Shown: one piece after another, positions 7,494 through 56,194 of the stretch | Position numbering within the stretch: position 1 is the first letter of the stretch | How the letters are laid out: each line of letters begins with the position of its first letter | Assembly (NCBI GenBank): GCA_009829735.1 | Contig: CM020620.1 | Coordinates: 13,699,420 to 13,763,419, forward strand | Source of the DNA: Pyropia yezoensis | Lineage: Eukaryota; Rhodophyta; Bangiophyceae; Bangiales; Bangiaceae | Length of the DNA: 64,000 bases | Direction: 5' to 3' | Notes under the pieces: generated by a model | Told to the model about the DNA's origin: nothing | Database searches by the model: none | The model's input: only the letters and a program-made list of their open reading frames with translations | Made by a program: the position numbers and the translations under genes

Positions 7494-9410
7494 ATGGCGG
7501 GTGAGCCGAGTCGGCCTTTGTCCCCGTCTCCGACGTCTCTGTCGGACAAGCGACGGACGGGAGAGGAGGCCCTCGGGACTGAGGAGTCTCTCAGCCGGGG
7601 GTCGGCCATGGAGACGACTCGTCCCGGGCGAGGGTCGGAGGCGGCCGCCTCAGCCGTCCCCGCCCCATCACCTCCTACTGCCCCCTCGGCCGTGGTCCCA
7701 CCGGGGGATGGGTCTTCCAACCCGGTGGCGGAAGGGGATGTGACTCCCATCCCCCGCCTTCCTGAGTCACGGCTGCTACTCCCGCCGCGGCCCCGTCCTC
7801 CTATGGGGCCCCGAGCCTGGGCGCCTCCCAAGTCAGTCGGGGAGCTTCCCGACTGCAAGCTCAAGGATGTCTACTTGATCATCCCCGAGCCACGGCGGAC
7901 CGACGTATGGTACCGCCGGACTCGTCGGTACCCCAACCAGGTGACTCTACCTGATGGGGTGGTCTGCGACCTACCAGCGCTACTCTGCCTGGCGGACGCG
8001 CCTGAAGTCCAGGCGTTGTCAACCTCCCTCGCCTTGGGGTCGGGCGACGTGGAGATCGACGACACCCACGCGGTTGTGTCTACCGAGTGGTGTGCCCTTC
8101 CCCGTCCCTACCTGGGCGGAGAGGACGCCCACGCCCAACACGGCGTGGTGCGAGAGGAGTTCCGACTCCGGGGCTCCTCGGGCTTCCTCATCCACGGGTC
8201 GCGGGTGGAGTTCACCCACGTACCTCTGGAGGAGCGTGAGCACCAGTACCCTTTTCTCCCAGGGTGGTGGGAGACAGTGGAGGTACCTTGTGGGTTTCCG
8301 GCTCGGATCCCCCTCCTCGTTGCCTACTTTGGCTCCGTGCTACGCTCCAGCTCGGAGGGTAACCGGGTCTTCGCCTACCTCGCCACGCACTGGGTGGTCG
8401 TGGTGGCTCGGGGCTGGTACTCCGATGTAGTCCATCGGGGTTACCTGTGGCACCTCCCACCGGCTCTGGTGGAGGGTATGGAAACCCTTGGCTTCCACTG
8501 GTTAGCCTTGGGCGCGGGGGACCTGGCTCCGTTCCTCCTTAAGGGTATGGTCACCCTGCACAATCGACTCGATTGGGCGCAGCTGGAACCCTTCCTCCGC
8601 CGCAATAAGCGTCCAGAGCCGGGGTTGGAGAGTGAGCCACCCCGGGAGTTCGTCCATGTCACCCATACTCTGGTGCAGGGGCAGCTGCTCTTGCGTGAGG
8701 GGTTGGGGGACTCTTCCCTTCCCTACGCAGAGGGGGTTACTCCCTCTACGTCGCCCCCTGGCTCTGGGTGGGCGACATCATCGGCGACGACTCGTCGTGG
8801 TGCTCATCGAGGAGCCCCTCGAAGCCGCGGGCGAGCTGTGCCGACGCCTTCCCCGCGGGTCGCGACTCCGACCTCGGGGGGTGTGGAGCCGACTCAGGCT
8901 CCACCCTTCCAGTTCCTCGAGCCCTTCCCCGACGTGGCGTTGGGTTCGCTACGGGTCCGAACTCCGGTACCCATGCCGATTGCGCGTGGCGTTGGCGAGA
9001 TGCTTCCCAACTTGGGAGCCATCATGTATGACGCCACGGTGGAGGCCTCACTCGTGGCCTCCCTTGACACGTTGGCTTGGGTCACCCGGCGTGTCAGTCA
9101 CTTCCTCGCGTCGGGCGACTCAGCCACGGCGCGACAGTCATTGGCAGCTGAGGTCACTCGCCTCGCGGTTGGACACGAGTTTGTCCAACGGCTGCTGTCG
9201 ACTCAGCAGCAGCTTCCGCGTCACGGAGGGAGTACCTCCGGACATCTATCTTACGACGGGGATGGGTCCGCGAGTCGGCGGGCCCCTCCCAGTGCTTCCA
9301 CTCCGGGGCCCTCCCGAGTGGGTTACGCCCCTCCGCTACCGGCCTACGACCCTGGGGGTTCGTGGTCGGGCGGTCCCTATAGTGGTGGGGGTGGGCATAT
9401 GGAACGCTAG
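7494..9410 (+). CDS. Antisense accessory protein of element B (638 aa)
   Basis: This ORF reads opposite to gag and pol and ends 128 bases from the pol stop, tail to tail. The start ATG at 7494 gives MAGEPSRPLSP; an open frame extends upstream without clear coding signal. Residues 1-100 are Pro/Ser/Gly-rich. A conserved core spans about 255-400: a Trp-Trp pair, VEVPCGFPARIP, YFGSVL, LATHW and YLWHLPPALVEGMETLG, then a helix-rich part with LREGLG. A second helical domain lies near 500-590. The core is clearly homologous to the antisense ORF of family A. It has no gag, env or transposase motif I can name. Antisense ORFs between pol and 3' LTR are known in some plant Ty3/gypsy elements; homology to those is untested. 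Function unknown. Confidence 0.75.
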   Translation: MAGEPSRPLSPSPTSLSDKRRTGEEALGTEESLSRGSAMETTRPGRGSEAAASAVPAPSPPTAPSAVVPPGDGSSNPVAEGDVTPIPRLPESRLLLPPRPRPPMGPRAWAPPKSVGELPDCKLKDVYLIIPEPRRTDVWYRRTRRYPNQVTLPDGVVCDLPALLCLADAPEVQALSTSLALGSGDVEIDDTHAVVSTEWCALPRPYLGGEDAHAQHGVVREEFRLRGSSGFLIHGSRVEFTHVPLEEREHQYPFLPGWWETVEVPCGFPARIPLLVAYFGSVLRSSSEGNRVFAYLATHWVVVVARGWYSDVVHRGYLWHLPPALVEGMETLGFHWLALGAGDLAPFLLKGMVTLHNRLDWAQLEPFLRRNKRPEPGLESEPPREFVHVTHTLVQGQLLLREGLGDSSLPYAEGVTPSTSPPGSGWATSSATTRRGAHRGAPRSRGRAVPTPSPRVATPTSGGVEPTQAPPFQFLEPFPDVALGSLRVRTPVPMPIARGVGEMLPNLGAIMYDATVEASLVASLDTLAWVTRRVSHFLASGDSATARQSLAAEVTRLAVGHEFVQRLLSTQQQLPRHGGSTSGHLSYDGDGSASRRAPPSASTPGPSRVGYAPPLPAYDPGGSWSGGPYSGGGGHMER

Positions 9411-9538
9411 AGTCAGCGGTCGAACGACTTGTTCTTTCCTTGGTGAGAAGAGTGGTGGGTATTCTTCTCGTTTTGTATTGTGCCATAGTCGGCTTTGTTA
9501 GTAGAGAATCTTTGAAGAACCATGGTATGTGTTTGTAC

Positions 9539-12500
9539 TCATGGTTGGCTTGCCGCTCTGCTCTGACTTGGAGCAGGGACTTCATCCCCCGACGTACGAG
9601 TGCTACGTCGGCGTATAGATATGCCCACAGTCTGGCAGTATCTACGGACCTTCTCTACTGGTAGGTCCTCTACAAACTCCCATGTGTCGGAAGTTGGTCC
9701 ATACCCGAACCACCTGACTCGGAGCATGAGTCGCCCCGACTCATCATATCCGTGCCCGACAAACTTGTCGAACACCGCCTCCAATGGCTTATTGGAAGAG
9801 GTCGGCAAGGATGGGACTTTCCATGCTTGCAAAGCCCTTTCCCAAGCGGGATCTCCCTCTGGGGGTTCGGGTGCGCGAGTCGCGTGATTCCCATTTATTG
9901 TCCGGATACCATCATCACTCTCGATGGTTAACCGACGTCCATCCGTTTTAAGGATGTGATATGGTCCCAGAGTCTTGAAGACCAATTTCCCTCCCTTATT
10001 GTCGTGGGAGTTAACATAAATCCAATCTCCAACTCGGAGCGGATCGCGACGATGTCTGACTCGGACATCGAAGTACCTCTTGTAACGGGCTTGGGCCTTC
10101 TCCATAGTAGCCCGGACAAGGGGTATCATCTCCTCCAGTCTCTGGAGTAGGGAGGCTTTCGCCTGACTCGGTGTTTGAGTCGAAGTCTCACCCTCAGTCT
10201 GGGTGAGACGCTCCACAGCTACTGACGGAAGTCGTCGGGGGCAGACGAAGGCAAACGGTGCCTCTCCCGTACTACTGTGTACCTGGGAGTTGTATGCTGT
10301 CACGAGTAGTGACGCATAACGAGCCCATGTGACTACATGGTCATGGACATAGTGACGCAACTGGCGCACTAGAGTCCTGTTGAATCGTTCCACCTGCCCA
10401 TTAGTCTGGGGATGGTAAGGGGTGGCGAAGTTCGTCTGCACCCCCAACATCTTCATGACTCCCTGATACAGGACGGACGCAAACTGTGGTCCGTTATCCG
10501 AAAGGATAGAGTCGGGGATGCCATAACTGGCAACCCAGACGTCGAGTAACTCACTCAGAACGTCCACGGCTGTGATATCCTTGAGTGGGGATACCCGTGT
10601 GAGCTTAGTGAAGCGATCACACATCACCAGAAGGTACTCATATCCTTCAGGTGTTCGTGGTAGTGGACCGAGTAAGTCCACTGCTATCGCTGCAAACGGC
10701 TCTGTTGCAGGAAAGAGTCTCATGGAAGAAGTCTGCCGGGACTCCATGAGTCTATTCTTTGCGCAAGTCGCGCATGCGGCTACATATCCGTACACATCAG
10801 CCACGAGTGATGGCCAATAGTACTTCTTACGTAGGGTCTGATACATCCTCGTAGACCCTGGGTGTCCACCCAACGGTGAGGAGTGCTCCCGTTGGAGGAT
10901 ACTCTTGCGTAACTCCTTGGGGACGACGACTTGCTTGTCCCCCTGGGTATATCCCTTACGGCAGAGTATGCCGTTGTCATTCAGGAAGAACCGAGTCGGT
11001 TGAGCCTGGTCGAGCTCCTTCCTGAGTCGTCGACAAAGTTTGTCGCTCTCCTGTGCCTGGACAAACTCATCCAAAGACACGGGTAATAATTTGGCCATGC
11101 CAGGCATCCTCGGGTCGAGGACAGTTCCGGAGCGAGTGGTCACTGCCACATGAGGGAGTTCCTCAGGGATAGGGGAAGTGTCTTTCCCATCCGTCGGTAT
11201 GCGAGACAACGCGTCCGCAACCGCATGCTTCGGGCCTGGCCGATATTCAACATCATAATCGAACTCAGCGAGGCAGAGTCGCCATCGATTGAGTCGGTTA
11301 TTCGTACAGGCTGTAGTGGTGAGTATCCACTTCAAAGCCTTGTGGTCACATCGAATGAGGAACTTCCTTCCTTCGATGTATGGCCGTAGCATGGAGACTG
11401 CCCATACCACGCCAAGACCCTCTACCTCCGTCACAGAATAGTTCTTCTGGGCGGGTGAGAGTCCCTTACTGAAATAGCCAACGGGTAAATACTCCCCCGA
11501 AGGCTGTTGTTGGAGTAAGCAACAACCGAGTTGGTCGTAACTTGCGTCCACATCAACGATGTAGTGAGCCCCCGGTCTCGGGATCGCTAACACCGGTGGG
11601 TTGCAGAGGAGCTCTCGCAACCTATCAAACGCTTCTTGCTCCGGGGGTTTGGGAGCATCCAAGCGCTTGGGCATCTTGGAACTTACCAAGTGGTTCAACG
11701 GTGCAGACACTTTGGCATAGTTCGCCACAAAGCGTCTGTATACGTTACACATACCCAGGAAGCTCCTGAGTTGTGTCTGCGTCTGGGGGAACTTCGCCCG
11801 ACGGATGGCCATGAGGTTCTTCTCATTGACCAGAATGCGACCTGGCCGGACTATATGGCCGAGGTACTCCACCTCATTACTAAAGAGGTGACACTTCGTA
11901 GGTTTGAGTGTTACTCCTGCTTCACCCAACAGGGTAAACACTCTGTCCAAGTGGGACAAGTGTTCTTCGGCAGTCCCGGAGAACACAATGATATCGTCCA
12001 GATACACCAGGGCGATCTGCCACTTGACTCCGGCAAGTATCAAGTCAATAGCACGCTGGAAAGTCGCAGGTGCATTGCAAAGCCCAAAAGGGAGCCGTGT
12101 ACACTGATAAACTCCACAGTGACACGTGAAGGTGGTCAAGTGTCTGTCCTCCTTGCGGATGGGTATCTGCCAGTACCCCGCGTTGCAGTCCAACGTGGAA
12201 AAGTACTGTGCCTCACCGAGTGAGTCAAGGCAATCGTCCATACGGGGTAAGGGGTAACTATCCCTTACCGTCCGCTCGTTTAGCTTACGATAATCGATGC
12301 AGAACCGCATCGTGCCGTCTGACTTGGGCACCAAGACTATGGGACTGGCCCACTCACTTGAGCAAGGCTCAATGACACCCATGTCTTGCATCCGTTGGAC
12401 CTGCTCTCGGGTGAGTTCCCGTGAGTCTGGTCCCATACGGTAGGGACTCAGGCGAACTGGCCTAGCCCCTGGCTTCAACACGATTCTGTGTTCGGTGGCC

Positions 12501-13578
12501 TTGATGAGCCCAAGGTCACCATTCCACAACTTGTGATGCTTCTGGATTAACTCATCCAGTCGTCCATGTAAACACTCCGGGATGTTCTCCCGATGTACCG
12601 TCGGCGACTTAGCCGTCGATGAACTCGATTGGTCGGCAGAGCCTGCCATTCCAATATCCTCCCATTGCTGTTGAGTCACAGCAACGACATTCCCCTCAAA
12701 GGTAGAGATCGACGCAATCTTCATGCCTCCGGGGAGTCGTCGAGGTTCCTCCGACGTGTTGAGGACCTCCACCCACCAGGTTTGGTCATCCCCACAAGTC
12801 ATGGGGCCCCAAGCAACTTGCACTTGGTGAGTATAATAGACTCGGTCCACGGGGGAAACAAGTCCATTCCCTCGAAACCGTGTGCGTACTCGCACAAAGG
12901 TCCTTGATCGGGGCGGGACTACCGTACCCTTACATACTCGTACATGGGTCGTAGAGCCTCCACCCTTGGGAGAGTTTTCCCTAGGTTGATGAGTCGTAGG
13001 GGAAACAGTCCTCCCTTTACGCAATATGGGGACAGTCTCTCCATTACGCATTCGGATTATCCCTTCCGGTCCACAGACGGCCGGGACATGGAGGTCCAGA
13101 TAGTCAGTTCCCAGGAGTACGGGGACTGACATATTGGAGACTACTCCAAAGTTCACCTGCGTCTGGTAGAACCCAATGCAAACAGTCAATGCAATAGACC
13201 CAACAATGGGGAGGAGTCCCCCATTGACATCAAACATACGCCACTCGGGTGAGCCGGCGGGGCTCACATCCGTCCCCTCTGGCAATAAGTCTTGCCTAAT
13301 GAGAGAGGCAGCAGAGCCTGTGTCGACTATGACACGAGAGGTAAACTCATATCCATCCTGCAGCCAGAGTCGAGCTGCGACCTGGTAGTTACTCCCTACC
13401 AGCACTGACACAATCCGACTCGGGTCGTGCTTCTGAGGAGGGGCCTTGTCCCTAGGTCTCACCCCTCGAGGTCGAGTCAGGACCTTCACTCTCCCATGGG
13501 TCGGTGAGCGTGAAGCAACCCGCTTCATTACCGCTGGAGCCTTTGGGTCAGTCTTAGTCCCAGCGGCTAGGCGTTTCC
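9539..13578 (-). CDS. pol: Pol polyprotein of element B (protease, RT, RNase H, integrase, chromodomain)
   Basis: The first ATG is at 13528 (1,329 codons), but the frame is open to the gag overlap, where translation is expected to enter by -1 frameshift. Numbered from that ATG: protease DTG at 69-71; RT with LPFGLCNAPATF near 479-490 and YLDD at 509-512; RNase H with Asp661 and Asp728. The integrase zinc finger is His882, His889, Cys919, Cys922, and its catalytic residues are Asp951, Asp1011 and Glu1047. A chromodomain lies near 1250-1303 (LRVRWFGY, SDTWEFVEDLP), followed by a basic tail. All catalytic residues are present, so the element could be active. Chromodomain integrases are thought to direct insertion to particular chromatin. 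Confidence 0.95.
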
Positions 13579-13579
13579 C
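13531..13579 (-). promoter_or_regulatory. -1 ribosomal frameshift signal of element B with stem-loop
   Basis: The heptamer GGGAAAC (13573-13579) is in the gag frame as G GGA AAC, one codon before the gag TAG. A -1 shift enters the open pol frame exactly. Six bases later CCGCTGG (13560-13566) can pair perfectly with CCAGCGG (13531-13537) across a 22-base loop. Slippery site, spacer and stem match the known layout of -1 frameshift signals. Confidence 0.75.
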
Positions 13580-15330
13580 TCATCCGACTCGGATGATGGA
13601 GTATCCTTGCCACTTGAGCTGGGGGAAGAGGTTTCCCCCTTCTCAAGCGTGGACTCATCCTCTGACTTAGGTTGAGTCATGGCCGTCACACGTGTGGTGT
13701 GTGGCCGGGTATCCGAATCAGTCCTCGGAATACCGAGCTTCCCAATACGAGCCAACAGGGCTCTCAAACGAACGTCCAGAGTGGGGCATTGGGCTGCCCA
13801 GTGTCCCGACTTGGAACACTGCCAACACGGCCGATCACTCATCGACGCCGATGGCCCCGCTTTTCCCTGTGACTTATCAGGGATGGCGGCCACCATACCT
13901 TCCGTCTCTCGAGTTGAGGACGAAGGTACTGCAGGGTACGTCCGCATGTAGGAAGGCATCCTTGCAGTTCTGCGGAAGCGACTTGCTTCCATTCCCTTAA
14001 CTTCTTTCTCTCGTTCCTTCCGCTGCTCAGACACGAGCCAGCGGTACTCATCACCCTTTGTCTGGGCGATGCGTGCCAACTCCGCCAGAGTCATGGTCGG
14101 AGTATTACGCTCTCGCACAGTCGCTCGAGCTGCTCGGTGGACACCCTCCACAAAGCGTCCCTTAATGACTCCTTGGGGATATAGGAATCCACAGAGGACG
14201 TTCAGCTGACGGAGTCGTTCAGCGAACTCCCGTTCCTCTTCACCCTTACTCTGGGTGGCGCGGTTGAACTCTTCAACCTGCACAGCCAAGGAAGCCTCGT
14301 CTGCGTGAAGACGAAGGATCCAATTAACCAACTCCAGGTAGGAGGTCACCTCACCCGGATTCCCACCATGCCGACTTGGCATGACGTTCATCACCTCGGA
14401 GCGGAGTGGCTCCTTGGTGAAGTCCTGAAGCATGAAAAACGCTTCAGCTTCAGAGACATCATTGTCATCGCAGGCTTTTGCGAACTTCCGCAAAAACTGG
14501 AAGACCTTCAGGGGTGGAGTCCCGTCCCATTCTGAACGGACCCCGAAGGATTGCGCAACGTGTTTCTTGCGCCGGCCCAGGGTACGGGCCTGGCTATTTG
14601 AGTAGGTCAACGACTTGTTGACCAACCCATATGTCTCACAGTCGAAGACATCCTTGAACAATGGATTATTCACCACGATCTTTCCTGGGACGACTCTAGT
14701 CCCAAGACGGTCCGTGTGAGTCACACGACCATGTCGAGTAAGATCTTCTTCACCCGACTTGCCACTTGCAGAGGACTCAGACTCCGAGTCCACCTCACGA
14801 CGGAGAGTACGTCGAATCTCCCGTCGCTTCTGACGCCTCGAGGCCTGCTCAGGCGGAGGGGTGCTCCCCTTCAACGCCTTCCCCACCTCCTCTCGCACGA
14901 CTTGTGCGATGGCAGTCATCACCGAGTTATCCACGATACCGGATGATCCAGGTGGAGCTTGACTCGAGCTCCCACCCGGTCCTTCCGGCACCAGTCGTGG
15001 CGCGGACCCACCAACCCGGGGTACAGAACTCCCTGTCCCGTCACCTCTGCCGGTCGGCGGTCCCATGCCGAAGTGAGTGTCGTCACTCCCCGAAGAGGTT
15101 GCCGGAGCCTGACGCTGGCTCGGCGCTCCCACCGGAGAAGGGCGAACTCCGCCCGTCTCTTCCGGTGACGGCCTGGGAAGGAACCTGGCCGATCGCCGTC
15201 GGGGTCCAACCTCTGGACCCACCACATCCGCACTGCCCGGCCTGGGTGGTACTCCGCCCGTCGGGGGAGGACTACGCTCCCCCTCCCCAGGTACACTCGG
15301 CGCAATGGGGGGGTCTCCCTCACCAGCCAT
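13567..15330 (-). CDS. gag: Gag of element B (587 aa)
   Basis: The start ATG at 15330 gives MAGEGDPP; the frame extends five codons upstream only from a GTG. The first 150 residues are Pro/Gly/Ser-rich. A capsid-like region in the middle contains FLRKFAKACDDNDVSEAEAF, typical of Ty3/gypsy gag. The zinc knuckle CWQCSKSGHWAAQC (CCHC spacing 2-4-4) lies near the C-terminus and would bind element RNA. An acidic Ser-rich tail ends at TAG 13567-13569, where the frameshift signal overlaps. Gag would form the virus-like particle in which reverse transcription occurs. Confidence 0.92.
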   Translation of the reverse strand: MAGEGDPPIAPSVPGEGERSPPPTGGVPPRPGSADVVGPEVGPRRRSARFLPRPSPEETGGVRPSPVGAPSQRQAPATSSGSDDTHFGMGPPTGRGDGTGSSVPRVGGSAPRLVPEGPGGSSSQAPPGSSGIVDNSVMTAIAQVVREEVGKALKGSTPPPEQASRRQKRREIRRTLRREVDSESESSASGKSGEEDLTRHGRVTHTDRLGTRVVPGKIVVNNPLFKDVFDCETYGLVNKSLTYSNSQARTLGRRKKHVAQSFGVRSEWDGTPPLKVFQFLRKFAKACDDNDVSEAEAFFMLQDFTKEPLRSEVMNVMPSRHGGNPGEVTSYLELVNWILRLHADEASLAVQVEEFNRATQSKGEEEREFAERLRQLNVLCGFLYPQGVIKGRFVEGVHRAARATVRERNTPTMTLAELARIAQTKGDEYRWLVSEQRKEREKEVKGMEASRFRRTARMPSYMRTYPAVPSSSTRETEGMVAAIPDKSQGKAGPSASMSDRPCWQCSKSGHWAAQCPTLDVRLRALLARIGKLGIPRTDSDTRPHTTRVTAMTQPKSEDESTLEKGETSSPSSSGKDTPSSESDEGNA

Positions 15331-15628
15331 CTCCACAAGAGTCACGTGGAGTCAACCAAAACGACCAAACGGTGTCCAGAGTCGGGGATCGTCAGCTAGG
15401 GAGTTCCTAGAGCACGTTCCACCCCTCCACCTGCCTCAAGGAAGGCGGTGAGGTTTCCCGAAACTCCGGGTCTCCCACCAAGACTCACGGTGGCCAACCT
15501 CGTCACCCAGCGAACGCTCGGAACGTAGGCGAGTCGATCGTGTCACCGGAAGTCTCGGTGCCGAAGGGGGAGAGGGGCCAACTTGGTCCCGTCTCCGGTC
15601 AAGGGAGGTACCAAAGTCGATATCCTCT

Positions 15629-15645
15629 CCCCCGCTGATCCACCA
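15629..15645 (-). other. Primer binding site of element B
   Basis: The minus strand reads TGGTGGATCAGCGGGGG two bases inside the 5' LTR. It resembles but differs from the 17-base site shared by A, C and D, suggesting a related tRNA. Confidence 0.7.
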
Positions 15646-15647
15646 AC

Positions 15648-16186
15648 TGTAGCAGTACTCCCAAGCACCAACCCCGAGTCAGGGAAGGAAGAGGAGTATT
15701 GCCGATATCCCAACTTGGGACACCGGAAGCAAGCACCTCCACACAGCCGAACACGGAACTTGCGTGTGGTGAGCGGGTCCACTCACCAAGGCACGAACAA
15801 GATGTGTCGGAGCCAGACGGTGTTTTCTTGCTTGGCCAGCCAAGGTGGGCCCTCCCCGCCTTGCTGTCCCTCCTTATCAACCCTCCTCACACGCTCACGC
15901 AACCCCTCAAAACACTCAGAAAATGAACCCTCAAACAAACCAATCATATCACTCCACATGCAAAGAACTCAAAGCGTAGAAATCCGTCTGGCTCCCGTGC
16001 AAAAATCCCAAGAAACAAATACCAGCAGCATTACCCTGCTCTAGTATGTCGGAAGTCCTAGTCGAATTTCCGTCCAGAAGTCAGAAGTTTCACCATCGTG
16101 GGTCGGGTGAATTTCGACTTCCGGTCAGGTCCACTTGACCCGAATCTTCAAAGTATTGGTACCGAATTCCGGCCCAATCTCCCACA
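15648..16186 (-). repeat. 5' LTR of element B (539 bp)
   Basis: It matches 5951-6489 with no difference seen by eye. A solo copy of the same LTR family lies at 61192-61732. Confidence 0.92.
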
Positions 16187-17356
16187 CGCTGGACAGACTC
16201 CGTCTCCGACGGGGTAGAGGACTCCGAAACGGAGTAAGACAACTCGTCTTCCGATACAGAAGGAGAGCGCCGCGAGTGTCGGCGACGACGGCGAGGAGGC
16301 GAGTATGCCCGGCTCGCGCGACGTTTGCCACGCCCAAGTGGGGCTGGCTGGGGCATAATAGCCCCAATGCGAGCCAACTCGGCTGTCATAAACTCCGCCA
16401 CCGACTCGCAACTCGCGGTCGCCACTGCAGTACGAACGCGCTCCTCAAGTTGAGGAGTCTCGGAACTCTGTAGGGTTGCGGTCTACGCGGCCAACCAGGA
16501 AATGGTGCGCACCAACGTGGTGATCATCATCTCTGAGGTTAGAGGCGTGGGCGGCAACACCAACTTGGGGTATACCGTCAGGAGGGTGGCCCCCAAGTTG
16601 GGGGACACCGGGGTGGAAGACTCCACGGCCACGCTGATCGGGATGTTCCCGTGAGGTTGGAAAGGAACAGGAGGAAGCGGAGGGGCCCGCCGAGGTGGCG
16701 GTACCCGGGTGTAGCTGCGACCCCGACTTGGGGCCCCCGCAGTGGGTTGAGTCATATGGTCATCATAGGACGGCACGGCCATAACTATGGGCTTGTCCGT
16801 GGGTGGCGCAGTGTGGCGATCCACCTCCGGGGCATACGGGTAGTCCCCGATGCCCAACCCCTCTCGTAGGACCACACGGCCGTCGTGAAGTTCACGAGCG
16901 ACCCACACGAACTGGCGAAGTGCGCCATCGTCCTTGGGCCCACGAGTGGGGCGGCGCAACTTATGCTCAATGCTCTCCCACTCGATAAACTTATGGAGCC
17001 GGAGCATCTCCTCAAGTAGAGTGAGTTGTCCTGATGAGCACCCCTCAGCAACTAGCTGAGGGGTGAGCTGTTCCAAACCTTGGAGGAGCCGGAGGGGGAG
17101 ATGCCAGAGCATCCCCCGCCGCTGAACACAGGACACCCAGGTCGACATGACCTCGAGGAGCCACTGGGTGGCCAACATGGCCCACACCAGGTGATCAGGG
17201 GCAGCCGTCAACAGGACGGAGCCGAAGTGGTCAAGCAACCGTGGCAACAACGCCGGGAACCCGTAGGGGACCTCAACTTGAGGCCACCACTCGGGCTTCT
17301 TCGGATAGTACTGCTCCTTACTGGCAGCAGACTGTTGAGGAAACTCAAGTTGAGCC
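16187..17356 (-). pseudogene. Central piece of the A1 antisense ORF, with a nonsense codon
   Basis: This is the middle of the family A antisense ORF between insertions B and C. It contains the conserved core (EVPYGFPALLPRLL, FGSVL, LATQW, MLWHLP). At 16483-16485 A1 has TAG where A2 reads TCG (Ser), so this copy was inactivated independently of the insertions. The frame continues at 27006 on the right and 5950 on the left. Confidence 0.85.
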
Positions 17357-17928
17357 TGTGGTATAAAACTCGATCCTCTCAGACACGTGTCAATATTCCT
17401 CGGGGGAAAGGGACAGGTAACGCAGAAAGGGGAACTACGAGAATGGTATGCCTGTTGCCTCACGTGCCTGCTTGCAGGGCAAACAGATACGCACGGTAGT
17501 GCACACGGGGAAGAGGAAAGCAAACGCGCAGTTGTCTTTTTCCCTGAGGGCGCGGGCCGAGGGCGCCTCGCTGTCCCTCTTAACGTGCATCTGGGGGAAC
17601 CCCGGCACGTTGGCCCGGTAGCCCCCCCATAACCCCGAGTGGCCCCGACCCGAGTCTAACCTCGTCAGGTCGGGGGCCACTATCACTACTAATTCTATTC
17701 CCACTCACTAATCTCACACTCAAATTCTCTCAAATCAAGTCCCTCACAAATATGCAAAAACACATCAGAAATCCCTCTCTCGCGTGTGGATAGCGTAGTC
17801 CACCGCATCCCAGTGCCGGGCACGGGCCACGGCCGCCAACCATCGCCACACGGCGGGCGTGTTCTGGCACCTGGTGCCCTCTGGTTGCAGTCCCGGGTCG
17901 GCGCCAAGTCGGGGCCAGGGATGCTACA
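17357..17928 (-). repeat. 3' LTR of element C (572 bp)
   Basis: On the plus strand it begins TGTGGTATAAAACTCG and ends GGGATGCTACA. The copy at 26434-27005 appears identical. The purine-rich tract GAGGGAGC-like sequence just right of 17928 (minus strand) fits a polypurine tract. Confidence 0.92.
17362..17368 (+). promoter_or_regulatory. TATA-like box in the C LTR, antisense direction
   Basis: TATAAAA lies six bases inside the LTR on the plus strand, pointing towards the antisense ORF that starts at 18113. No comparable box was noticed for the sense direction. Promoter function is inferred from sequence only. Confidence 0.4.
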
Positions 17929-18112
17929 TAGCTCCCTCCCTAGTCCGGCACGTCCTCGGGCCGAACCAGGTGCCACCGTGCACAGCCTCGAGCACGTCCA
18001 CACCGGTGCCGAGGTCGAGCGTCTTCACCCCGGTCACGATCACCTGCCCCGATTCTGCCCCCCCCCTCCGCTCCTTCACCTTGGCCCTCTCGTTCCCCGG
18101 AGTCTGGACGGT

Positions 18113-20230
18113 ATGTCCAGTTCCGAGATCCAAGCTGGGCCCGTGGTTCCGGCGGCGAGTATTGCGGAGGAGAACTCGGGTCGTCGTGCCCCTCTCTTGC
18201 CTCCGGTTCCTCGGATGTCGGTGCCGGCGCCGGTCGCCACGGCGGGGACGGATCGAGTTCCCTCGGCTTCCGCGATGCACCCGGTCGAGGCCCCCCCGGA
18301 GGGTCTCCCGGAGATGCTTCTTGGGCAGGACCCTCTGGCGGCCCGGCGTTACTCCACGGTGGTCGGCAACGCCGGCGCGGCCCAGTGCCAGCAGGATTGC
18401 ATGGACCTCTGGCGCAAGGAACTCCAGCGCGGGGTCTTGACCGAGATGGACAAGGCACGTCTTCACACGGCGGACCAGATGCGCCTGGCACAAGACCGCT
18501 CCCAGAGCTTCTCGGGTTCCTCTTGGGTTGCTCGTCTGGAGGATCTCCCCTTCGCGCTGGTACTGGATCTACCCTTGACCGAGCGTCGCGTGTCCGCGTC
18601 CGTTCTCCGGTGGCCGGAGGAGGAAGGGTACGTCTACCGGGCGCTCAAGGTCTGGGATGAGGCGCTCAAGGGGTCGGGAAGCTTGAACTGCGACCCCCGT
18701 CCGAGTATGGTCGCTCTGGAGCCGCCTTTCTTGACCCGGAAATATTCCAAGTTGTCGCCGGCACGGGAGCAGGGTGAGCGACGCGGGCGTCAGCGTGACT
18801 TCCTTGTGAGCTGCAATCACCAGGAGTTCTGGAAGCTGGACAAGGCTAACCGGGCGGCATACTACCCCAAGGTCATCCCGCAGCAGCAGGAAGTCGAGAT
18901 CCCGGTCGGGTTTGCTCCTTCCAGCATCCCTTGCACCTGGTACTTCTTGGACGCCTTGACTCAGGCGTCGATCAAGGGCTTCTTCCACTCAATCCCGTAC
19001 ATGATGTACACGTCCGAGATGACAGTCTTGGCGGCCAACCACTGGCTTCATGAGGTCTTGGTGTCCAACCGGCTTTGGTTTCTCCCTGACCTCCTGATGG
19101 TCTGGATTGTCGACAAGTTGACCGTCGACTTCCTGTACAGCCAGGACGAGGAGTACAAGGAGCTCTTCCAGGCGATGATCGACTTCCGGCGTCTGGTGCC
19201 GGTGCATGACCGGAACTTCTTGAACGCGATTGCCGACCAGAACCGCCCGCGTCGGGATGGCTTCGGTTGGGCGCAGGTGGTCTACCAGTCTTCTCCGGCC
19301 AAGGTGCAGCTGGCGACGCCGCTTCCGGCGTGGCCGCAGCTAGGTAGCTTTCCTGCTCCGGCCGCCCTTGATCTTCTGCCAGTTGGGCCGCCGGTGCAGG
19401 AGTCGGGATGGGCCGCGGCGGTCGGTCGGGCGTCTGCGGCGGCTCCGCTTCCTCCTGTTGCCCCTGTCGCCCCGGTTGCCTCGCCTGAACCGTCACCGGC
19501 GCGTCCGCGCCCTGTTCCTGCTGTGCCGGTACTTCAAGCTCCTCCGGCACCGCGCTTGTCTGCGGCGAGTCTGGGAGTGGCCGTGCGGTCGCCGATTACT
19601 CCGGTCGCTCTACCCCGGACGCCTTCTTCCAACGCCGGCGGCGCTGTGCCTCCGCTGGAGTTGGGTACTCCGGTCTCGGGGGCCGTTGTGGACCGTCCGG
19701 TAGTGTCATCCTCGGGCCGGTTCGAGATTCCGGCGCCGACTCTGCGCCTTACCCGCTTCCGGGTGCCTGACTGGTACCTGAACCAAGGTGGTCCAACATG
19801 CGACCAGTACGACGTCGGCATGATTGAAGACCAGCTGGGTCGTCTTCCGGTGCAGGTTGAAGGCGTCGGGTCCTCTCTGGTGCTGGGTACTTACGCCAGC
19901 GTCTTGAACGACGTGGTCGACCGGGTGTTTGCTTGCGCGGACAGCGGCCAGATGTCGAACAACCCGGTGGTTGGCGAACTTCTGGCGACTTTGACGCGGC
20001 ATGGCCTGGCCCAGCAGTGGTCAGAGACCTTCACGGGCTTCCAGCGGCGCCGACGGACATATCTGGATGAGCGGGAGCCACCGGCAACTACTGGTACTAC
20101 TCCGATGGCGTCATACCGGGATGCGCCGCGTCCACCGCACTACGTCATCCCGTCTTCCTCCGGTTCCCGTCGTACCGCGGGGGCAGCGCCGGAGGACACT
20201 CCCTCGGCTCAGCGTCCGCGCCGGGAGTAG
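18113..20230 (+). CDS. Antisense accessory protein of element C (705 aa)
   Basis: The ATG at 18113 gives MSSSEIQAGP. The frame is open further upstream into the LTR only from a GTG. The ORF ends 145 bases from the pol stop, convergent with it. Residues 1-120 are Ala/Pro/Ser-rich. The central domain contains EVEIPVGFAPSSIP, ANHWLHEVL and RLWFLPDLL (near 19070), in the same order as the core in A and B. A Pro/Ala/Val-rich linker follows, then a helical C-terminal domain (near 535-640) and a basic end. No known catalytic motif is seen. Length, position and core order match the antisense ORFs of the other families, so I treat it as a divergent homologue. Function unknown. Confidence 0.72.
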   Translation: MSSSEIQAGPVVPAASIAEENSGRRAPLLPPVPRMSVPAPVATAGTDRVPSASAMHPVEAPPEGLPEMLLGQDPLAARRYSTVVGNAGAAQCQQDCMDLWRKELQRGVLTEMDKARLHTADQMRLAQDRSQSFSGSSWVARLEDLPFALVLDLPLTERRVSASVLRWPEEEGYVYRALKVWDEALKGSGSLNCDPRPSMVALEPPFLTRKYSKLSPAREQGERRGRQRDFLVSCNHQEFWKLDKANRAAYYPKVIPQQQEVEIPVGFAPSSIPCTWYFLDALTQASIKGFFHSIPYMMYTSEMTVLAANHWLHEVLVSNRLWFLPDLLMVWIVDKLTVDFLYSQDEEYKELFQAMIDFRRLVPVHDRNFLNAIADQNRPRRDGFGWAQVVYQSSPAKVQLATPLPAWPQLGSFPAPAALDLLPVGPPVQESGWAAAVGRASAAAPLPPVAPVAPVASPEPSPARPRPVPAVPVLQAPPAPRLSAASLGVAVRSPITPVALPRTPSSNAGGAVPPLELGTPVSGAVVDRPVVSSSGRFEIPAPTLRLTRFRVPDWYLNQGGPTCDQYDVGMIEDQLGRLPVQVEGVGSSLVLGTYASVLNDVVDRVFACADSGQMSNNPVVGELLATLTRHGLAQQWSETFTGFQRRRRTYLDEREPPATTGTTPMASYRDAPRPPHYVIPSSSGSRRTAGAAPEDTPSAQRPRRE

Positions 20231-26433: not shown

Positions 26434-27005
26434 TGTGGTATAAAACTCGATCCTCTCAGACACGTGTCAATATTCCTCGGGGGAAAGGGACAGGTAACGC
26501 AGAAAGGGGAACTACGAGAATGGTATGCCTGTTGCCTCACGTGCCTGCTTGCAGGGCAAACAGATACGCACGGTAGTGCACACGGGGAAGAGGAAAGCAA
26601 ACGCGCAGTTGTCTTTTTCCCTGAGGGCGCGGGCCGAGGGCGCCTCGCTGTCCCTCTTAACGTGCATCTGGGGGAACCCCGGCACGTTGGCCCGGTAGCC
26701 CCCCCATAACCCCGAGTGGCCCCGACCCGAGTCTAACCTCGTCAGGTCGGGGGCCACTATCACTACTAATTCTATTCCCACTCACTAATCTCACACTCAA
26801 ATTCTCTCAAATCAAGTCCCTCACAAATATGCAAAAACACATCAGAAATCCCTCTCTCGCGTGTGGATAGCGTAGTCCACCGCATCCCAGTGCCGGGCAC
26901 GGGCCACGGCCGCCAACCATCGCCACACGGCGGGCGTGTTCTGGCACCTGGTGCCCTCTGGTTGCAGTCCCGGGTCGGCGCCAAGTCGGGGCCAGGGATG
27001 CTACA
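26434..27005 (-). repeat. 5' LTR of element C (572 bp)
   Basis: Its sequence matches 17357-17928 along its whole length by eye. It is followed directly by the target duplication GAGCC. Confidence 0.92.
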
Positions 27006-47387: not shown

Positions 47388-47855
47388 TGTGGCAGTATTG
47401 ACCCCCAGGTAGGGGGCAACACGTGCCATGCAAGGGGCGGCAGGCCACTAGCCTGATCCGTTCCTCCCCCTGCATTTGGGTCCATATTCCCTAAGTTCGG
47501 GATAGTTAGCTTAGTAGTAAATCCAACTTGGATTTGAGGGTTTTCTGCATTTATCGTCTTGAATTTTCGTGTGGCCCGGTGGGCAGGTGCTGGGGTGGGA
47601 GATTCTGAGTGGCGAGATTCTGAGTGGACCCTGGGGGGATAAGGGGAGGGACAGCGGGGCTTGGCCCTGCGTCCCCGTCCCGACCAAGAAACTGTTGGCC
47701 CACACACCATCTTCTTGTTTGTCCGTGGGGGGATTGCCCCACAACAGGGATAGAGTGTGTGCGACTTGCACTTCTTCCGGTTCCCCCGACACGGGAGGCA
47801 GCCCTCGCACACCGCCCCAACTTGGGTGCTGTGTGTGCGAGTGGTTTTTGCCACA
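47388..47855 (+). repeat. 5' LTR of A2 (468 bp)
   Basis: TGTGGCAG to TTGCCACA; no difference from 51938-52405 was found by eye. Confidence 0.93.
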
Positions 47856-48203: not shown

Positions 48204-49541
48204 GTGGTACACTCAAAGGGAACGTCCCAAGGTGAGAGGACTGTCCCCGCGAGATCCACTCGGGTTGGATTCAACTTCGGCATAGAGCCGTCGCCAACTA
48301 GGCGGGTGGAAGACGGCGGACCTTCACTCGTCGGTGATGGGCTCGAGCCTGTGACAGGGGTCGTAGCAAGTTGCTACCCCCGCCACCCTCAAAGAAAGTA
48401 TCTTTGATCGGGAGCCAAGTTCGGCTATATCGACCAACATGAGGGACCGGTAGTAGCGGCCACCCTCAACGCGGGCGCGAGTAGCGACCCGAGGTCCGGA
48501 AAGGAGAAGCACCAAGCCAAGTCGGCCGCCTCTCCTCGTCCCCATGTGAACATGGAGGGTGTTCCACCCAGGTTGAGAGTTCAAGTTGAACGCCTCTTGG
48601 ACCAATATCACAAGTTGTGGGATGGTCAATTGGGACTCATGAGAGCCACCCAACACCGGATCGAGTTGAAACCCGGTGTACCCCCTATACGCCAACAACC
48701 GTATAGGGGAGGGCCCCGTTCAAGGGCCCTCGTCAAGGAGCGCTTCAACAAAACTATTGTTAGGCAGCTGCGCCACTATGTGAGTGAGCATGTGAAAACG
48801 TGGGACCAATACATTTCTATTCTTACCACTGCCTACAATTCGCAGGTTCACTCATCTACCGGGGAAGTACCCCTCGCTTTTGTGACCCCCCGTCGCGTGC
48901 GGTCTATTGCTGTGCGGCGGTCGCTCCCAACTAGGGAGGATGATGGCAGCACGCCTACTCCTACTGAGAGTAAGGCGGAGTTCGCTGCTAGGCTTGAACA
49001 CCTCATCCCTAAAGTCAGGGCTGAGATGGACAAAGCACAAAAGCGCTACAAGCGTACCTTTGACAAAAAGGGGCGCAATGCTAAGCATGTCCCCGAACAG
49101 GGTGACTGGGTGCTGGTTCACTCACACACCCCAACTGGGGGTAAGTTGGTATTCCAGACGAAGGGGCCGTACCAGGTCCTTCGTACTGATGGGCGGCGTT
49201 TCACCATCGAAAGTGACGATGGGGTCCGCACAGTGAACGGACAGGACGTGGTCAAAGTTGCACCACCGCCTGCAGGCGACCCAGCTTGGGCGCGTGCTTT
49301 GGAAGCGTGGCGCCTCCCCTCACTACCTGCGGCCAAACAGGGCTCGCAGGAGTACGTGTTCGATAAGTTCATCGACCACGGATGGGATGAGGATACTAAC
49401 CGCCTCATGTTGAGGGTGCGTTGGTTTGGCTACAAAGCCAAGGATGATACGTGGGAATATGTGGAGGACCTTCCCGCTGAGAAGGTCCGGGCGTACTGTG
49501 CCCGGAATGAGATAGACCCTAACAGCCCTCCCTCAACGTGA
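48204..49541 (+). pseudogene. Internally deleted pol of A2
   Basis: It has the same structure as 4292-5629 in A1: upstream protease-RT linker with one TGA (48405-48407), RT start, direct jump to RFNKTIVRQL of the integrase end, then chromodomain (LRVRWFGY, DDTWEYVEDLP). The uninterrupted part is over 370 codons. It differs from A1 by a handful of substitutions, for example GRNAKH instead of VRNAKH. If translated, the product would be a chromodomain protein without catalytic domains. Confidence 0.8.
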
Positions 49542-49652
49542 GGGAAGGCCGAGCAACAGTGCCAAGAGAGTGCTTCAAGTCGAAGTGGTACGCAGAGTGG
49601 CTTTAAACTACAGCCCTAACCCTCACACTCTCACAACAAAGGCAACTGCCAA

Positions 49653-51596
49653 CTAGGCACGCATGCTAGACTCTCCCACTCCACGGCCCTCGCCCTCACG
49701 TGGAGGCGAGCGGCGAGACCCACGCCGATAACGGTCTCCACTCGTTGGAAGGGGCGGCGGCTCCAAGTCGGAACCGTCGCGCCCCTCACGGTCGCGCAAG
49801 TGGCGCCGACCGTGGCTACTCTTCTGCCTGGTCTTGCGCGCAAGTTTGCGACGCAGACGCTGGACAGACTCCGTCTCCGATGGGGTAGAGGACTCCGAGA
49901 CGGAGTAAGACAACTCGTCTTCCGACACGGAGGGAGAGCGCCGCGAGTGACGGCGACGACGGCGAGGAGGCGAGTATGCCCGGCTCGCACGACGCTTGCC
50001 ACGCCCAAGTGGGGTTGGCTGGGGCATAATAGCCCCAATGCGAGCCAACTCGGCCGTCATAAACTCCGCCACCGACTCGCAACTCGCGGTCGCCACTGCA
50101 GTACGAACGCGCTCCTCAAGTTGAGGAGTCTCGGAACTTTGGAGGGTTGCGGTCGACGCGGCCAACCAGGAAATGGTGCGCACCAACGTGGTGATCATCA
50201 TCTCTGAGGTTAGAGGCGTGGGCGGTAACACCAACTTGGGGTATACCGTCAGGAGGGTGGCCCCCAAGTTGGGGGACACCGGTGTGGATGACTCCACGGC
50301 CACGCTGATCGGGATGTTCCCGTGAGGCTGGAAAGGAACAGGAGGAAGCGGAGGGGCACGCCGAGGTGGCGGTACCCGGGTGTAACTGCGACCCCGACTT
50401 GGGGCCCCCGCAGTAGGTTGAGTCATATGGTCATCATATGAGGGCACAGCCATAACTATGGGCTTGTCCGGGGGTGGCGCAGTGTGACGATCCACCCCCG
50501 GGGCATACGGGTAGTCCCCGATGCCCAACCCCTCTCGTAGGACCACACGGCCGTCGTGAAGTTCACGAGCGACCCACACGAACTGGCGAAGTGCGCCATC
50601 GTCCTTGGGCCCCCGAGTGGGGCGGCGCAACTTGTGCTCAATGCTCTCCCACTCGATAAACTTGTGGAGGCGGAGCATCTCCTCAAGTAGAGTGAGTTGT
50701 CCTGACGAGCACCCCTCAGCAACTAGCTGAGGGGTGAGCTGTTCCAAACCCTGGATGAGCCGGAGGGGGAGATGCCAGAGCATCCCCCGCCGCTGAACAC
50801 ATGACACCCAGGTCGACATGACCTCGAGGAGCCACTGGGTGGCCAACATGGCCCACACCAGATGATCAGGGCCAGCCGTCAACATGACGGAGCCGAAGTG
50901 GTCAAGCAACCGTGGCAACAATGCCGGGAACCCGTAGGGGACCTCAACTTGAGGCCACCACTCGGGCTTCTTCGGGTAGTATTGCTCCTTACTGGCAGCA
51001 GACTGCTGAGGAAACTCAAGTTGAGCCGAGGTCACCAAGTAGGGACCTCGCCGAAAGTCTTTCTCCATCCGCACATCAAAGTGATGAGTGTGCGGATCGG
51101 CCTCGTGAAGGTACGGGGGGCGAGTTGCCACCGCGTCCCAAGTGAAGGTCGGCAAGTCGCCGGGACCCGGGATAGTTCCCCCGCGGTCCACCATGGCCTT
51201 GGCCCGCTGCACGTCCTCGACCTCCTCGTCGTCCAGGAAGGCAAACTGGTCCGTCCTGAAGCCGGCAGGGAACCCGACCCTACGGGGATACTTCTCCCGT
51301 AGGCGGTCCCATACCCGACCCATCGCTGCGCCAAGTCGGCCACAGCGAAGAACAGTCAACCCCTCCTCATACAGAGGCCAAGCGGGGTAAAACCACCGCC
51401 CCAAGGCCTCACGCGGGACAACTTGTCCCGCATCCGGGGGAGATCCTGCCGTCAACCCAAAGCCGGGTGACGCGGGAGTCCCACCCCCCGGAGCGATCGC
51501 GGAGCCCCCGCCGGAAGTCCCGGCAGGCGCTGCACCGTAGGAGGTGTCCTCCATACGCTCATCGAGAGAGTCCGTCTCCACTCCCGGAGTCGCCAT
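49653..51596 (-). CDS. Antisense accessory protein of element A2 (647 aa)
   Basis: The ATG at 51596 gives MATPGVETDSLDERMED and matches the A1 start; the frame is open 57 codons further upstream. It ends 111 bases from the pol-derived stop, tail to tail. Order: Gly/Pro-rich start; REALGRWFYPAW and a charged region; core with WWPQVEVPYGFPALLPRLL, FGSVML, LATQWLLEVM, GMLWHLPLRLIQGLEQL (near 50771) and VVLREGLGIGDYPYAP; Pro-rich linker; a helical segment near 480-560; and an Arg/Ser-rich basic tail with SRRSPS-like repeats. The core aligns well with element B. It is the only long intact ORF of this young element. Function unknown; nucleic-acid binding by the basic tail is a guess. Confidence 0.75.
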   Translation of the reverse strand: MATPGVETDSLDERMEDTSYGAAPAGTSGGGSAIAPGGGTPASPGFGLTAGSPPDAGQVVPREALGRWFYPAWPLYEEGLTVLRCGRLGAAMGRVWDRLREKYPRRVGFPAGFRTDQFAFLDDEEVEDVQRAKAMVDRGGTIPGPGDLPTFTWDAVATRPPYLHEADPHTHHFDVRMEKDFRRGPYLVTSAQLEFPQQSAASKEQYYPKKPEWWPQVEVPYGFPALLPRLLDHFGSVMLTAGPDHLVWAMLATQWLLEVMSTWVSCVQRRGMLWHLPLRLIQGLEQLTPQLVAEGCSSGQLTLLEEMLRLHKFIEWESIEHKLRRPTRGPKDDGALRQFVWVARELHDGRVVLREGLGIGDYPYAPGVDRHTAPPPDKPIVMAVPSYDDHMTQPTAGAPSRGRSYTRVPPPRRAPPLPPVPFQPHGNIPISVAVESSTPVSPNLGATLLTVYPKLVLPPTPLTSEMMITTLVRTISWLAASTATLQSSETPQLEERVRTAVATASCESVAEFMTAELARIGAIMPQPTPLGRGKRRASRAYSPPRRRRRHSRRSPSVSEDELSYSVSESSTPSETESVQRLRRKLARKTRQKSSHGRRHLRDREGRDGSDLEPPPLPTSGDRYRRGSRRSPPREGEGRGVGESSMRA

Positions 51597-51924: not shown

Positions 51925-51937
51925 GAGGAGAGGGGAG
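51925..51937 (+). other. Polypurine tract of A2
   Basis: GAGGAGAGGGGAG directly before the 3' LTR. Confidence 0.75.
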
Positions 51938-52405
51938 TGTGGCAGTATTGACCCCCAGGTAGGGGGCAACACGTGCCATGCAAGGGGCGGCAGGCCACTA
52001 GCCTGATCCGTTCCTCCCCCTGCATTTGGGTCCATATTCCCTAAGTTCGGGATAGTTAGCTTAGTAGTAAATCCAACTTGGATTTGAGGGTTTTCTGCAT
52101 TTATCGTCTTGAATTTTCGTGTGGCCCGGTGGGCAGGTGCTGGGGTGGGAGATTCTGAGTGGCGAGATTCTGAGTGGACCCTGGGGGGATAAGGGGAGGG
52201 ACAGCGGGGCTTGGCCCTGCGTCCCCGTCCCGACCAAGAAACTGTTGGCCCACACACCATCTTCTTGTTTGTCCGTGGGGGGATTGCCCCACAACAGGGA
52301 TAGAGTGTGTGCGACTTGCACTTCTTCCGGTTCCCCCGACACGGGAGGCAGCCCTCGCACACCGCCCCAACTTGGGTGCTGTGTGTGCGAGTGGTTTTTG
52401 CCACA
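51938..52405 (+). repeat. 3' LTR of A2 (468 bp)
   Basis: It matches the 5' LTR and is followed directly by the target duplication CTCTA. Confidence 0.93.
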
Positions 52406-53821: not shown

Positions 53822-56194
53822 ATGTCGGACCCCCAGGTACCCGGGGGCGAGGACGACCTCCTGCTTGAGGAGGAGGAGGAGGTGATGGTGGACGACGTTC
53901 CCGTCTCTGCCACTGCTGCCGAGTGCTTCTTGGCGAGCTCGTCGGAGGACGAAGGCGACCGGGTAACCGTCCGTGTGGCCCCGGAAGGCGCGCCGGGCGG
54001 ATTGTCGTCCGTGTGCAGCGGCACGACGGCTCCGTCGGGTGGCGGTCAACCGCATGTAGCGGCTGCCCCTACTCCTACTCCTCCGGCGGCCCGGATGGCT
54101 CCTGCCGCCGGTGCCGGCGCGGCTCTACCTCAAGACGGTGCAGCCAGTGTGTCGGGCGGTCGTGGCGGCACCCCGGCCGGGACGGCGGGTCAAGACGGCG
54201 CGGGTGCCCGCCCGGTTGGTGGTGTGTCCGTGGGGGCGGGTAACGGGTCTGCCCCCTCCGTCCCCGTGGTGCCCACGTCGGGCCCGGGTGGCGGCGATGC
54301 TCTGCCCGCGGTGCCGCGGGCGATTGGTGGTCAAGACGTGTCTTCCCCGATGGCGATGGACTCCGGGAGCTACTCCGGGCGGGCGCCTGCCCTTCTTCTT
54401 CCTCGTCGGCCCCGTGCGCCTACGGCACCGGCCCATCTGCCGGTGGGGCTTCCCCCGGCGCCCCCGATTCTTCCTGGTCCCGCCCGGGTTGCCCCGTTAG
54501 GTGGCGGCGTCGCCTTGGCGGCGGGTCAACCCGCCATGTCGATGTCCGACTTGGTGGCTCGGGTTCGAGGCCTAACTGTGCAGGAGTCCATGGACTCCGC
54601 CGGGCGGATGCGGGTGGACTTCCACCAGCCGCGTCACCGTGGAGAGTCCTCCCGGCGCGTCAAGGTGGACCCAAGTTGGGAGCGGGAATTGATGCGGCTG
54701 GTCAACCAGCCGAACGCGGTCCGGGTGGAACATCATTGAGTCCTGAGTCATCCGGACGACCGGATTGCGCAGCTCTGGCGCACCCGGGTGGGGCGCGGGG
54801 AAGTCTTCCTCGACTCCGCCTTCGGGGTATGCGACTTGGTTGCCCCCGCGTTGCCGCGGGAGGTTGACTACCCGGATAGTGCTCGGGGGGTTGCGGCGGC
54901 GGCGGAGCCGGTGGCGTTTGGGGAGACGGTGGGCGATACTTGCCGGTATCCCGGGTTTGAGTACTTCCCGGGGGTATCCCCGTATCTGACGTTGACGGCT
55001 CCGTACCCGCCTATGGCGGGGTTGAAGTCGGCGTCTAGCTGGCGACGCAACCATGGTGTCATGGCGGATGCGTTCCGCACCGATATAACGTGTGCGTTGC
55101 AGACCGGTAACGGTCGCGCGCCGGTGTACACTCCCGTGCGCCCGCTTCTGTGGCAGGAGGGGTGGGAACCCGCCCCTGCTTTCCGGTTTGACACCGGATC
55201 CTTTCTCCGATACTTCAGGAGTGTGTTGGCATCTCGGCCGGTCCACCCGTTGCAGGGGACCTTCACCCTTGAGGTTACCCTCGGGCAGGCTTCCTCCTTC
55301 TTGCTGTCCGTCCGCCGGGAGGGGCGCCTGTGTCATCTTCCGACGGGTGTCTGTCGGCATATCGGGCAGCTGGGCGTAGACATGGTAGCTGCCAAGACCG
55401 GGTTGGCCCGGGAGTTCGAGGCCCTGCTGGCCGTTCACGATGCCGTGAACTGGGCTGGGGTGTTGGCCCTCCCCCTGTACCGGGACCCGCAGGCTGGGGC
55501 TGCCCCCTTGCCTCGTAACTCCTTGCGTATCCGGCGTACTCAGCTGGGTGAGCCCAATTGCCGTGGGTGGGCGTCCACAGAGGCTGTTTCTGACCTGGGT
55601 ATTCCCATGGTTATCCATGACCCTCTTCAGATCCTCGCCCCGTGGTTCGGTAACCCGATACCGATGGCGGTTGGTCGTCGTCCCCGAGAGTGGGACTCTG
55701 CGGGTGGGGCGCCTGAGGTGTCCCGTCGTCGGGCGGAGCCCCGCCGGGTTTACGGTGGAGCCCCTTCAGTGGGGTCCTACCGGGCCTCGTATCAGGCGCC
55801 ACCGGCTCCGGTAGTAGCCGTGTCGGCTCCGGTGGTTCCTCTGGCTGCGCCAGTGTCACCTTTCGCCCCTGTCATGCGTGACGGGGGTCCCCGTCTATGG
55901 TAAGAGGGCGTTGACGCCCTCATTGCCCGTGAGATGCGGGAGGGTCTCTCTGTTAGCTGGGGGGATATCCCCCCAGGTGCTGCGCTGGTCGGTTCCGCGC
56001 GTTGCTTTGGTGGCGTGTTGGACCGCCTCCAGACAGCTCTGGAGGACGTGGAGGCTGGCCGCAGCACCCTCGTCCAGCTATGCACCGAGGTAACTCGGGC
56101 GATTGACCGTCATGAGATTGCCGACCGGTGGAGCATGGAGGTGTACGCGTTTACGCGTGAGTGGCCTCCCTCGGGCAGCGGGTCTACCCACTGA
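53822..56194 (+). pseudogene. Antisense ORF of element D, broken by two stop codons
   Basis: One frame from ATG 53822 to the stop at 56194 would have 790 codons, but TGA at 54737-54739 and TAA at 55901-55903 interrupt it. The first part begins with an acidic run (MSDPQVPGGEDDLLLEEEEE) and is then Ala/Pro/Gly-rich. The middle carries SFLRYFRSVL, RLCHLPTGVCRHIGQLG (near 55325) and a following helical region, corresponding to FGSVL and LWHLP of A and B. The last part is helical. Position and orientation match the other families. The two stops lie between conserved parts and there is no frameshift, which suggests simple decay after loss of use. Confidence 0.7.

Follow-up and report, generated by a model that had tools for sequence, protein, structure and literature searches.

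A predicted protein-coding gene antisense to gag-pol is shared by four Ty3/gypsy families of the red alga Pyropia yezoensis

Antisense open reading frames (ORFs) between pol and the 3' long terminal repeat (LTR) are an established class in plant retrotransposons, with one fungal element also cited (PMC7264820); described cases include maize Grande, rice RIRE2, Silene Retand and fungal Boty (PMC7264820, PMC11963269). TRP28 is encoded by 97% of Retand clusters and seems confined to flowering plants (PMC11963269), while the antisense protein of Grande (gene23) localizes to the nucleus and has an upstream promoter of its own (PMC7264820). An antisense promoter has also been reported in the 3' LTR of human T-cell leukaemia virus (HTLV) (PMC7264820, PMC11963269). 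Here we describe a comparable arrangement in a 64,000-nucleotide stretch of the P. yezoensis genome (assembly GCA_009829735.1, contig CM020620.1, positions 13,699,420 to 13,763,419, forward strand), referred to below as the window. Five LTR retrotransposons, complete or partial, lie in the window; they come from four Ty3/gypsy families (A, B, C and D), each of which carries a long antisense frame (asORF) between pol and the 3' LTR, on the strand opposite to pol. Judged from sequence, the four families share a homologous coding gene antisense to gag-pol, the predicted protein of which is kept by selection in the three families tested.

The stops of asORF and pol are separated by 111 bp in the second A copy (A2), 128 bp in B, 145 bp in C and 451 bp in D (positions in Table 1). 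The asORF ATG lies 342 bp (A2), 1005 bp (B) and ~180 bp (C) from the 3' LTR, and at most 689 bp from it in D, whose LTR is only partly known. As conserved ORFs antisense to gag-pol and placed between pol and the 3' LTR, these frames correspond in position and orientation to the class termed aORF-3R. They had been picked out in an earlier, sequence-only reading of the window, the coordinates of which agree with ours for all four families, as do the convergence with pol, the 111–145 bp between stops in A, B and C, the broken state of the D frame and the asORF in pieces in the first A copy (A1), which is split by the insertions of B and C. That reading was also right that antisense extra ORFs occur in plant Ty3/gypsy lineages (PMC7264820, PMC11963269).

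The longest stop-free runs in the asORF regions of A2, B and C are 724, 846 and 765 codons, against maxima of 461, 456 and 595 in 500 order-1 simulations per region, and on the sense strand these regions are open for just 195, 153 and 234 codons. Twelve sister stretches of the D asORF were fetched (801 codons); nine are open over 800–801 codons, and of the other three, two reach 749 and 766 codons and the last only 418. Among the matches listed in the alga's own genome, 68 of 68 (A), 59 of 70 (B) and 63 of 63 (C) are stop-free, and 89 of 110 for D have no stop over 371 residues; these matches are the best-scored of 3673, 2554, 22002 and 2254 candidates, respectively, which favours intact copies, and the counts are lower bounds. 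Frames might nevertheless be open by chance or G+C bias, their similarity reflecting the DNA relatedness of the elements, as the 61% G+C of the window lengthens random frames. That this is all they are seems to us extremely improbable: the simulations reach 456–595 codons at most, below every length observed in A2, B and C, and both codon-level selection and protein similarity over four families and two species, described below, argue against it.

BLASTP comparisons of the asORF proteins (E-values refer to a set of seven sequences) matched A with B (4e-44), C (3e-7) and D (5e-6) and B with C (3e-8), the pairs B–D (0.04) and C–D (0.27) being unconvincing. In hhalign, a profile of A and B matched C at 92.3% (E 5.6e-7) and D at 94.4% (E 9.3e-8), compared with maxima of 1.4% for C and 0.8% for D in column-shuffled controls (40 each) and of 1.7% in eight comparisons of asORF with gag or pol profiles. 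The match spans a core consisting of a WW-x-x-VEVP-x-GFPA segment, a long helix, an LWHLP block (LWHLP, LWHLP, LWFLP and LCHLP in the four families) and an LHN-x-LDW segment. Between families, no significant match was obtained for the C-terminal parts. Overall, the proteins have a core of ~200 residues, mostly helical by prediction, flanked by Pro-, Gly- and Ser-rich ends. A structure model of the core (pLDDT 65.7 overall and 80–93 over residues 111–170) is likewise mostly helical and, at this moderate confidence, gave no convincing match in a fold comparison. asORF identity is 37% for A–B and 23–27% for the other pairs, and this order of relatedness mirrors that of pol (61% for A–B over the integrase end; 31–44% for other pairs, with B, C and D at 38–44%), which we count in favour of shared descent. 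We consider homology of the asORF across the four families very probable. The ancestor of the four would then already have had an asORF, which is ancient in the sense that it predates the split of families with pol proteins 38–44% identical (B, C and D).

Selection on the protein was assessed in A, B and D from nonsynonymous (N) and synonymous (S) changes and their rate ratio (dN/dS), with expected N:S counts derived from the mutation spectrum. Changes shared by at least two copies were 18N:43S in B, against 70.7:32.9 expected (dN/dS ~0.19; 47 copies), and 29N:50S in D, against 97.5:41.6 (dN/dS 0.25; 10 copies), giving binomial p values of 6e-10 and 9e-10. Changes seen in a single copy gave 0.68 (B) and 0.60 (D), so that old and young changes differ (Fisher p 8e-5 for B and 0.003 for D); values nearer neutral are expected for single-copy changes if selection works on spreading lineages, and the preference for open copies may depress them. 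For A, dN/dS against the window copy was 0.06–0.25 in 17 of 20 relatives fetched for another purpose (transition weight of 4 assumed; the three left out have insertions or deletions, and a stop is present in one of those used).

The B set comprised the window copy and 49 others, 94–100% identical in protein (30 best-scored and 20 from weaker matches, mostly stop-free), from which three with stops were dropped; multi-change codons and 83 codons showing three or more states were excluded. All 49 distinct B copies together gave 38N:74S shared changes (84.4:38.7 expected) and 206N:129S single ones (242.8:111.3 expected). The D set was 10 of the 12 fetched copies, picked from stop-free matches; L060 and L066 were dropped, as was the window copy, and 112 codons showing three or more states were excluded. 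In a wrong-frame control for B, one opposite-strand frame was also biased towards silent changes (56S:46N) and the other four wrong frames were not; we attribute this bias to wobble positions that coincide with asORF third positions.

Two results weigh against a shared, selected gene. The direct profile comparison of C with D was insignificant (0.4%), and the 30 most similar B copies taken by themselves, which hold few changes, had no silent bias (7N:8S shared and 21N:23S single). On balance, we conclude that the asORF almost certainly encodes a real protein under selection. The antisense RNA itself might instead be what matters, by pairing with genomic RNA and so feeding or dampening silencing; the layout is convergent in all four families, and a plant review lists double-stranded RNA as a possible role (PMC7264820). 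Pairing alone, however, would not keep amino acids, so the constraint on codons (shared B changes fall 29/12/65 at codon positions 1/2/3), together with proteins that align between families, speaks against an RNA-only role, which we think unlikely; pairing may occur in addition to the action of a protein.

Searching 5.8 billion predicted proteins (8000 candidates scored) returned eight relatives of the B protein. Four are annotated gene models of Pyropia vietnamensis, 50–57% identical; the remaining four are 35–99% identical. A profile built from nine sequences gave 13 matches and no further named organism, C alone gave one match, and no relative was confirmed in viral or prokaryotic contigs. 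The asORF protein had no convincing match in Pfam, PDB sequences or PHROGs, and in titles and abstract starts of the open-licence literature we found no description of such an antisense frame for gypsy elements of red algae. The sequence-only reading had proposed an ancient, conserved antisense gene with an undescribed protein, pointing to a good A–B core alignment and to an L-[WC]-[HF]-L-P block common to the families; regulation, RNA binding or particle function were its suggestions for what the protein may do. Both observations hold, and the proposal is supported by the profile matches, the low dN/dS and the P. vietnamensis relatives; of the two outcomes it had named as speaking against it, neither was found where tested, the A/B profile matching C and D rather than neither and dN/dS in A, B and D lying well under 1.

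In comparison with described systems, none of the seven asORF proteins matches TRP28 (PF04195) at E up to 10 at the HMMER level. The alga's own genome likewise gave no match at E up to 10, the control genomes being without a plant positive and giving one sub-threshold match in E. coli, and the spacing of the best-conserved TRP28 residues (PMC11963269) is not apparent, by eye, in the algal core. Retand is a plant Ty3/gypsy non-chromovirus with an antisense TRP28 ORF of unknown function (PMC11963269); the algal elements differ in having no PF04195 match, a red-algal host and a pol that ends in chromodomain-like sequence. Grande (gene23), RIRE2 and PvRetro13 of bean agree with the alga in position and orientation, as does, outside plants, Boty of Botrytis cinerea and Sclerotinia sclerotiorum with its antisense ORF between pol and the 3' LTR (PMC7264820), all as compared by description only; the PvRetro13 product is described with an SMC domain, and Pfam gave none in the algal proteins. 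HTLV-1 HBZ and HTLV-2 APH-2, antisense genes at the 3' end of primate retroviruses, were compared in their way of working only (PMC7264820, PMC11963269). By its sequence, the algal asORF therefore represents a protein family that is new, in an arrangement that is not, as compared with TRP28 at the HMMER level and with Boty and Grande by description. Other LTR retrotransposons are on record for Porphyra yezoensis, which we take to be the same species as our source alga. These, PyRE10G and further copia-like elements, are copia-like and not gypsy, and the sections available of PMC2806351 do not mention an antisense ORF for them.

The elements of the window belong to Ty3/gypsy by their LTRs with target duplications and by the order reverse transcriptase–RNase H–integrase. 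Pol of B, C and D reads RVT_1, RNase H, H2C2 and rve, while the A copies of the window are without most of pol. On the C-terminal piece of pol, the Pfam Chromo model scored 25.7 bits in A and 25.3 in C (cut-off 25.1), and 21.0 in B and 14.9 in D, below that cut-off; on whole ORFs, A, B and C fell under it and D was unlisted. The gag profiles of B, C and D match each other at 96–99.7%.

Taken as a whole, the data are best explained, in a view we hold with some confidence, by a shared and selected antisense gene with its own promoter that would encode a nuclear accessory regulator. Transcription would start at a promoter that lies in the 3' LTR or just internal to it and converge on pol, by analogy with Grande and HTLV (PMC7264820). 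Integrated copies could then express the asORF with no need of the 5' LTR promoter or of translation of the genomic RNA, and the asORF protein may control LTR transcription, relieve host silencing, or handle RNA or the pre-integration complex. That it is a nuclear regulator rather than a structural or other protein we rate at slightly under an even chance; this part of the explanation is argued solely by analogy, with a nuclear Grande protein that has its own promoter and with the antisense promoter in the HTLV 3' LTR (PMC7264820).

A particle or assembly factor would be a different answer, for instance another capsid-like protein or one that packages RNA, translated from an antisense mRNA. 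Capsid proteins are mostly helical, as the asORF core is predicted to be, and the asORF adjoins gag-pol in B, C and D. Against this, the asORF has no profile similarity to the gags of its own elements, even though those gags recognize one another readily, and no capsid was among the fold matches, with a model too weak to exclude one. Moreover, in the pol-deleted A2 no sense-strand ORF reaches 200 codons in the stretch from the 5' LTR to the pol remnant, and yet the asORF is intact. We regard a particle role as improbable.

The A copies of the window carry a large deletion in pol, the exact junction of which occurs at 27 genome sites, two inside the window and 25 outside. Of seven A loci chosen by asORF match, six (L002–L006 and L008) have an intact integrase there and L007 is a junction variant. 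Twenty junction-bearing copies were fetched (the first in list order): the asORF is fully open in 16, has a stop in one and is shifted by insertions or deletions in three. In six diverged junction copies, pol remnants differ by 43N:76S and the more constrained asORFs by 85N:313S (Fisher p 0.0016, from comparisons that are not independent, all being made against one copy); these six come from seven diverged ungapped copies, one with an asORF stop having been left out, and two of their remnants have a stop. In one junction element, the pol remnant has 7 mismatches in 1105 positions and the asORF 64 in 1944. Such unequal divergence of asORF and pol remnant gives the elements a mosaic look, and they have probably recombined with intact ones. 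The data are compatible with, and do not show, separate selection for the asORF in the pol-deleted subfamily, as the constraint may stem from intact relatives.

These copies also bear on whether the protein is an anti-silencing factor and not a direct regulator of transcription. The families appear recently active, with 100% identical LTRs in B and A2 and dozens of near-identical asORF copies, and the pol-deleted A subfamily, dependent on other copies, has kept the asORF open in most of those fetched. However, we found no sequence kinship with any described anti-silencing factor, and deleted copies may retain an asORF because they are young or have recombined with intact elements. We judge a purely anti-silencing role to be rather unlikely, and continue to favour the broader explanation of an accessory regulator.

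A1 is interrupted twice, by B (5951–16186) and by C (17357–27005); two different gypsy families have both inserted in one A1 asORF (window 5951–27010). Target duplications of 5 bp are CTCTA (A2), CGCTG (B) and GAGCC (C), and LTR pairs are 97–100% identical (for D the comparison covers 234 bp, as the window ends there). A lone B-type LTR (61191–61739) sits between D gag and D pol, and a lone A-type LTR (46633–47106) lies shortly upstream of A2. Other genes in the window are an ORF with a Hint (hedgehog/intein-type) module (1–1173, minus strand; Pfam E 7.6e-12), which runs off the window; a phytase-like esterase gene (34256–35962, plus strand; 568 codons; Pfam E 1.2e-29); and a Ser/Arg-rich ORF (37637–39187, minus strand; ~500 codons), splicing-factor-like by eye, for which Pfam gave nothing at E up to 0.01.

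Table 1 Retrotransposon features of the window, in window coordinates.
Feature	Position	Strand	Remarks
A1 LTRs	3472–3943 and 27915–28386		
A1 asORF piece 1	5741..5950	−	Ahead of B insertion; start set by alignment to A2
A1 asORF piece 2	16183..17356	−	Between B and C
A1 asORF piece 3	27006..27579	−	Past C insertion; end set by alignment to A2
B 3' LTR	5951..6489	−	100% identical to B 5' LTR
B asORF	7494..9410	+	638 codons, intact
B conserved core	8061..8651	+	Predicted helical; WW..VEVPCGFPAR ... YLWHLP ... LHN.LDW
B pol	9539..13528	−	Reverse transcriptase, RNase H, integrase, weak chromodomain
B gag-like ORF	13567..15345	−	Zinc knuckle match slightly under Pfam cut-off
B 5' LTR	15648..16186	−	
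C 3' LTR	17357..17928	−	Target duplication GAGCC immediately precedes
C asORF	17921..20230	+	Intact; ATG at 17921 (inside LTR end) or 18113
C pol	20376..24335	−	With weak chromodomain
C gag-like ORF	24464..26224	−	Profile match to B gag
C 5' LTR	26434..27005	−	Target duplication GAGCC after
A2 element	47388–52405		
A2 5' LTR	47388..47855	+	100% identical to A2 3' LTR; target duplication CTCTA
A2 pol remnant	48546..49541	+	Start of reverse transcriptase fused to end of integrase and weak chromodomain
A2 asORF	49653..51596	−	647 codons, intact
A2 3' LTR	51938..52405	+	
D element	52870 to window end or beyond		
D asORF	53792 (or 53822)..56194	+	Broken by two in-frame stops
D pol	56646..60737	−	Reverse transcriptase, RNase H, integrase, very weak chromodomain match
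D gag-like ORF	61959..63431	−	Profile match to B and C gag

A more specific scenario, which we put forward as a possibility although we doubt it as a whole, is that an asORF family unrelated to TRP28 was gained by a chromodomain-type red-algal gypsy lineage before the families split, and that it may be expressed in antisense and act in trans as a regulator or against silencing, useful enough to be kept even in elements without reverse transcriptase. If this is true, antisense accessory genes had separate origins in the gypsy elements of plants, fungi and red algae. The plant papers leave open what role such ORFs play at the 3' end of gypsy elements (PMC7264820, PMC11963269). That a protein without detectable TRP28 kinship sits at the same site in a distant lineage, in elements that look recently active, and shows purifying selection in the families tested suggests a value in the arrangement as such, and the alga, with its compact 107-Mb genome, offers a second system in which to ask why it persists.

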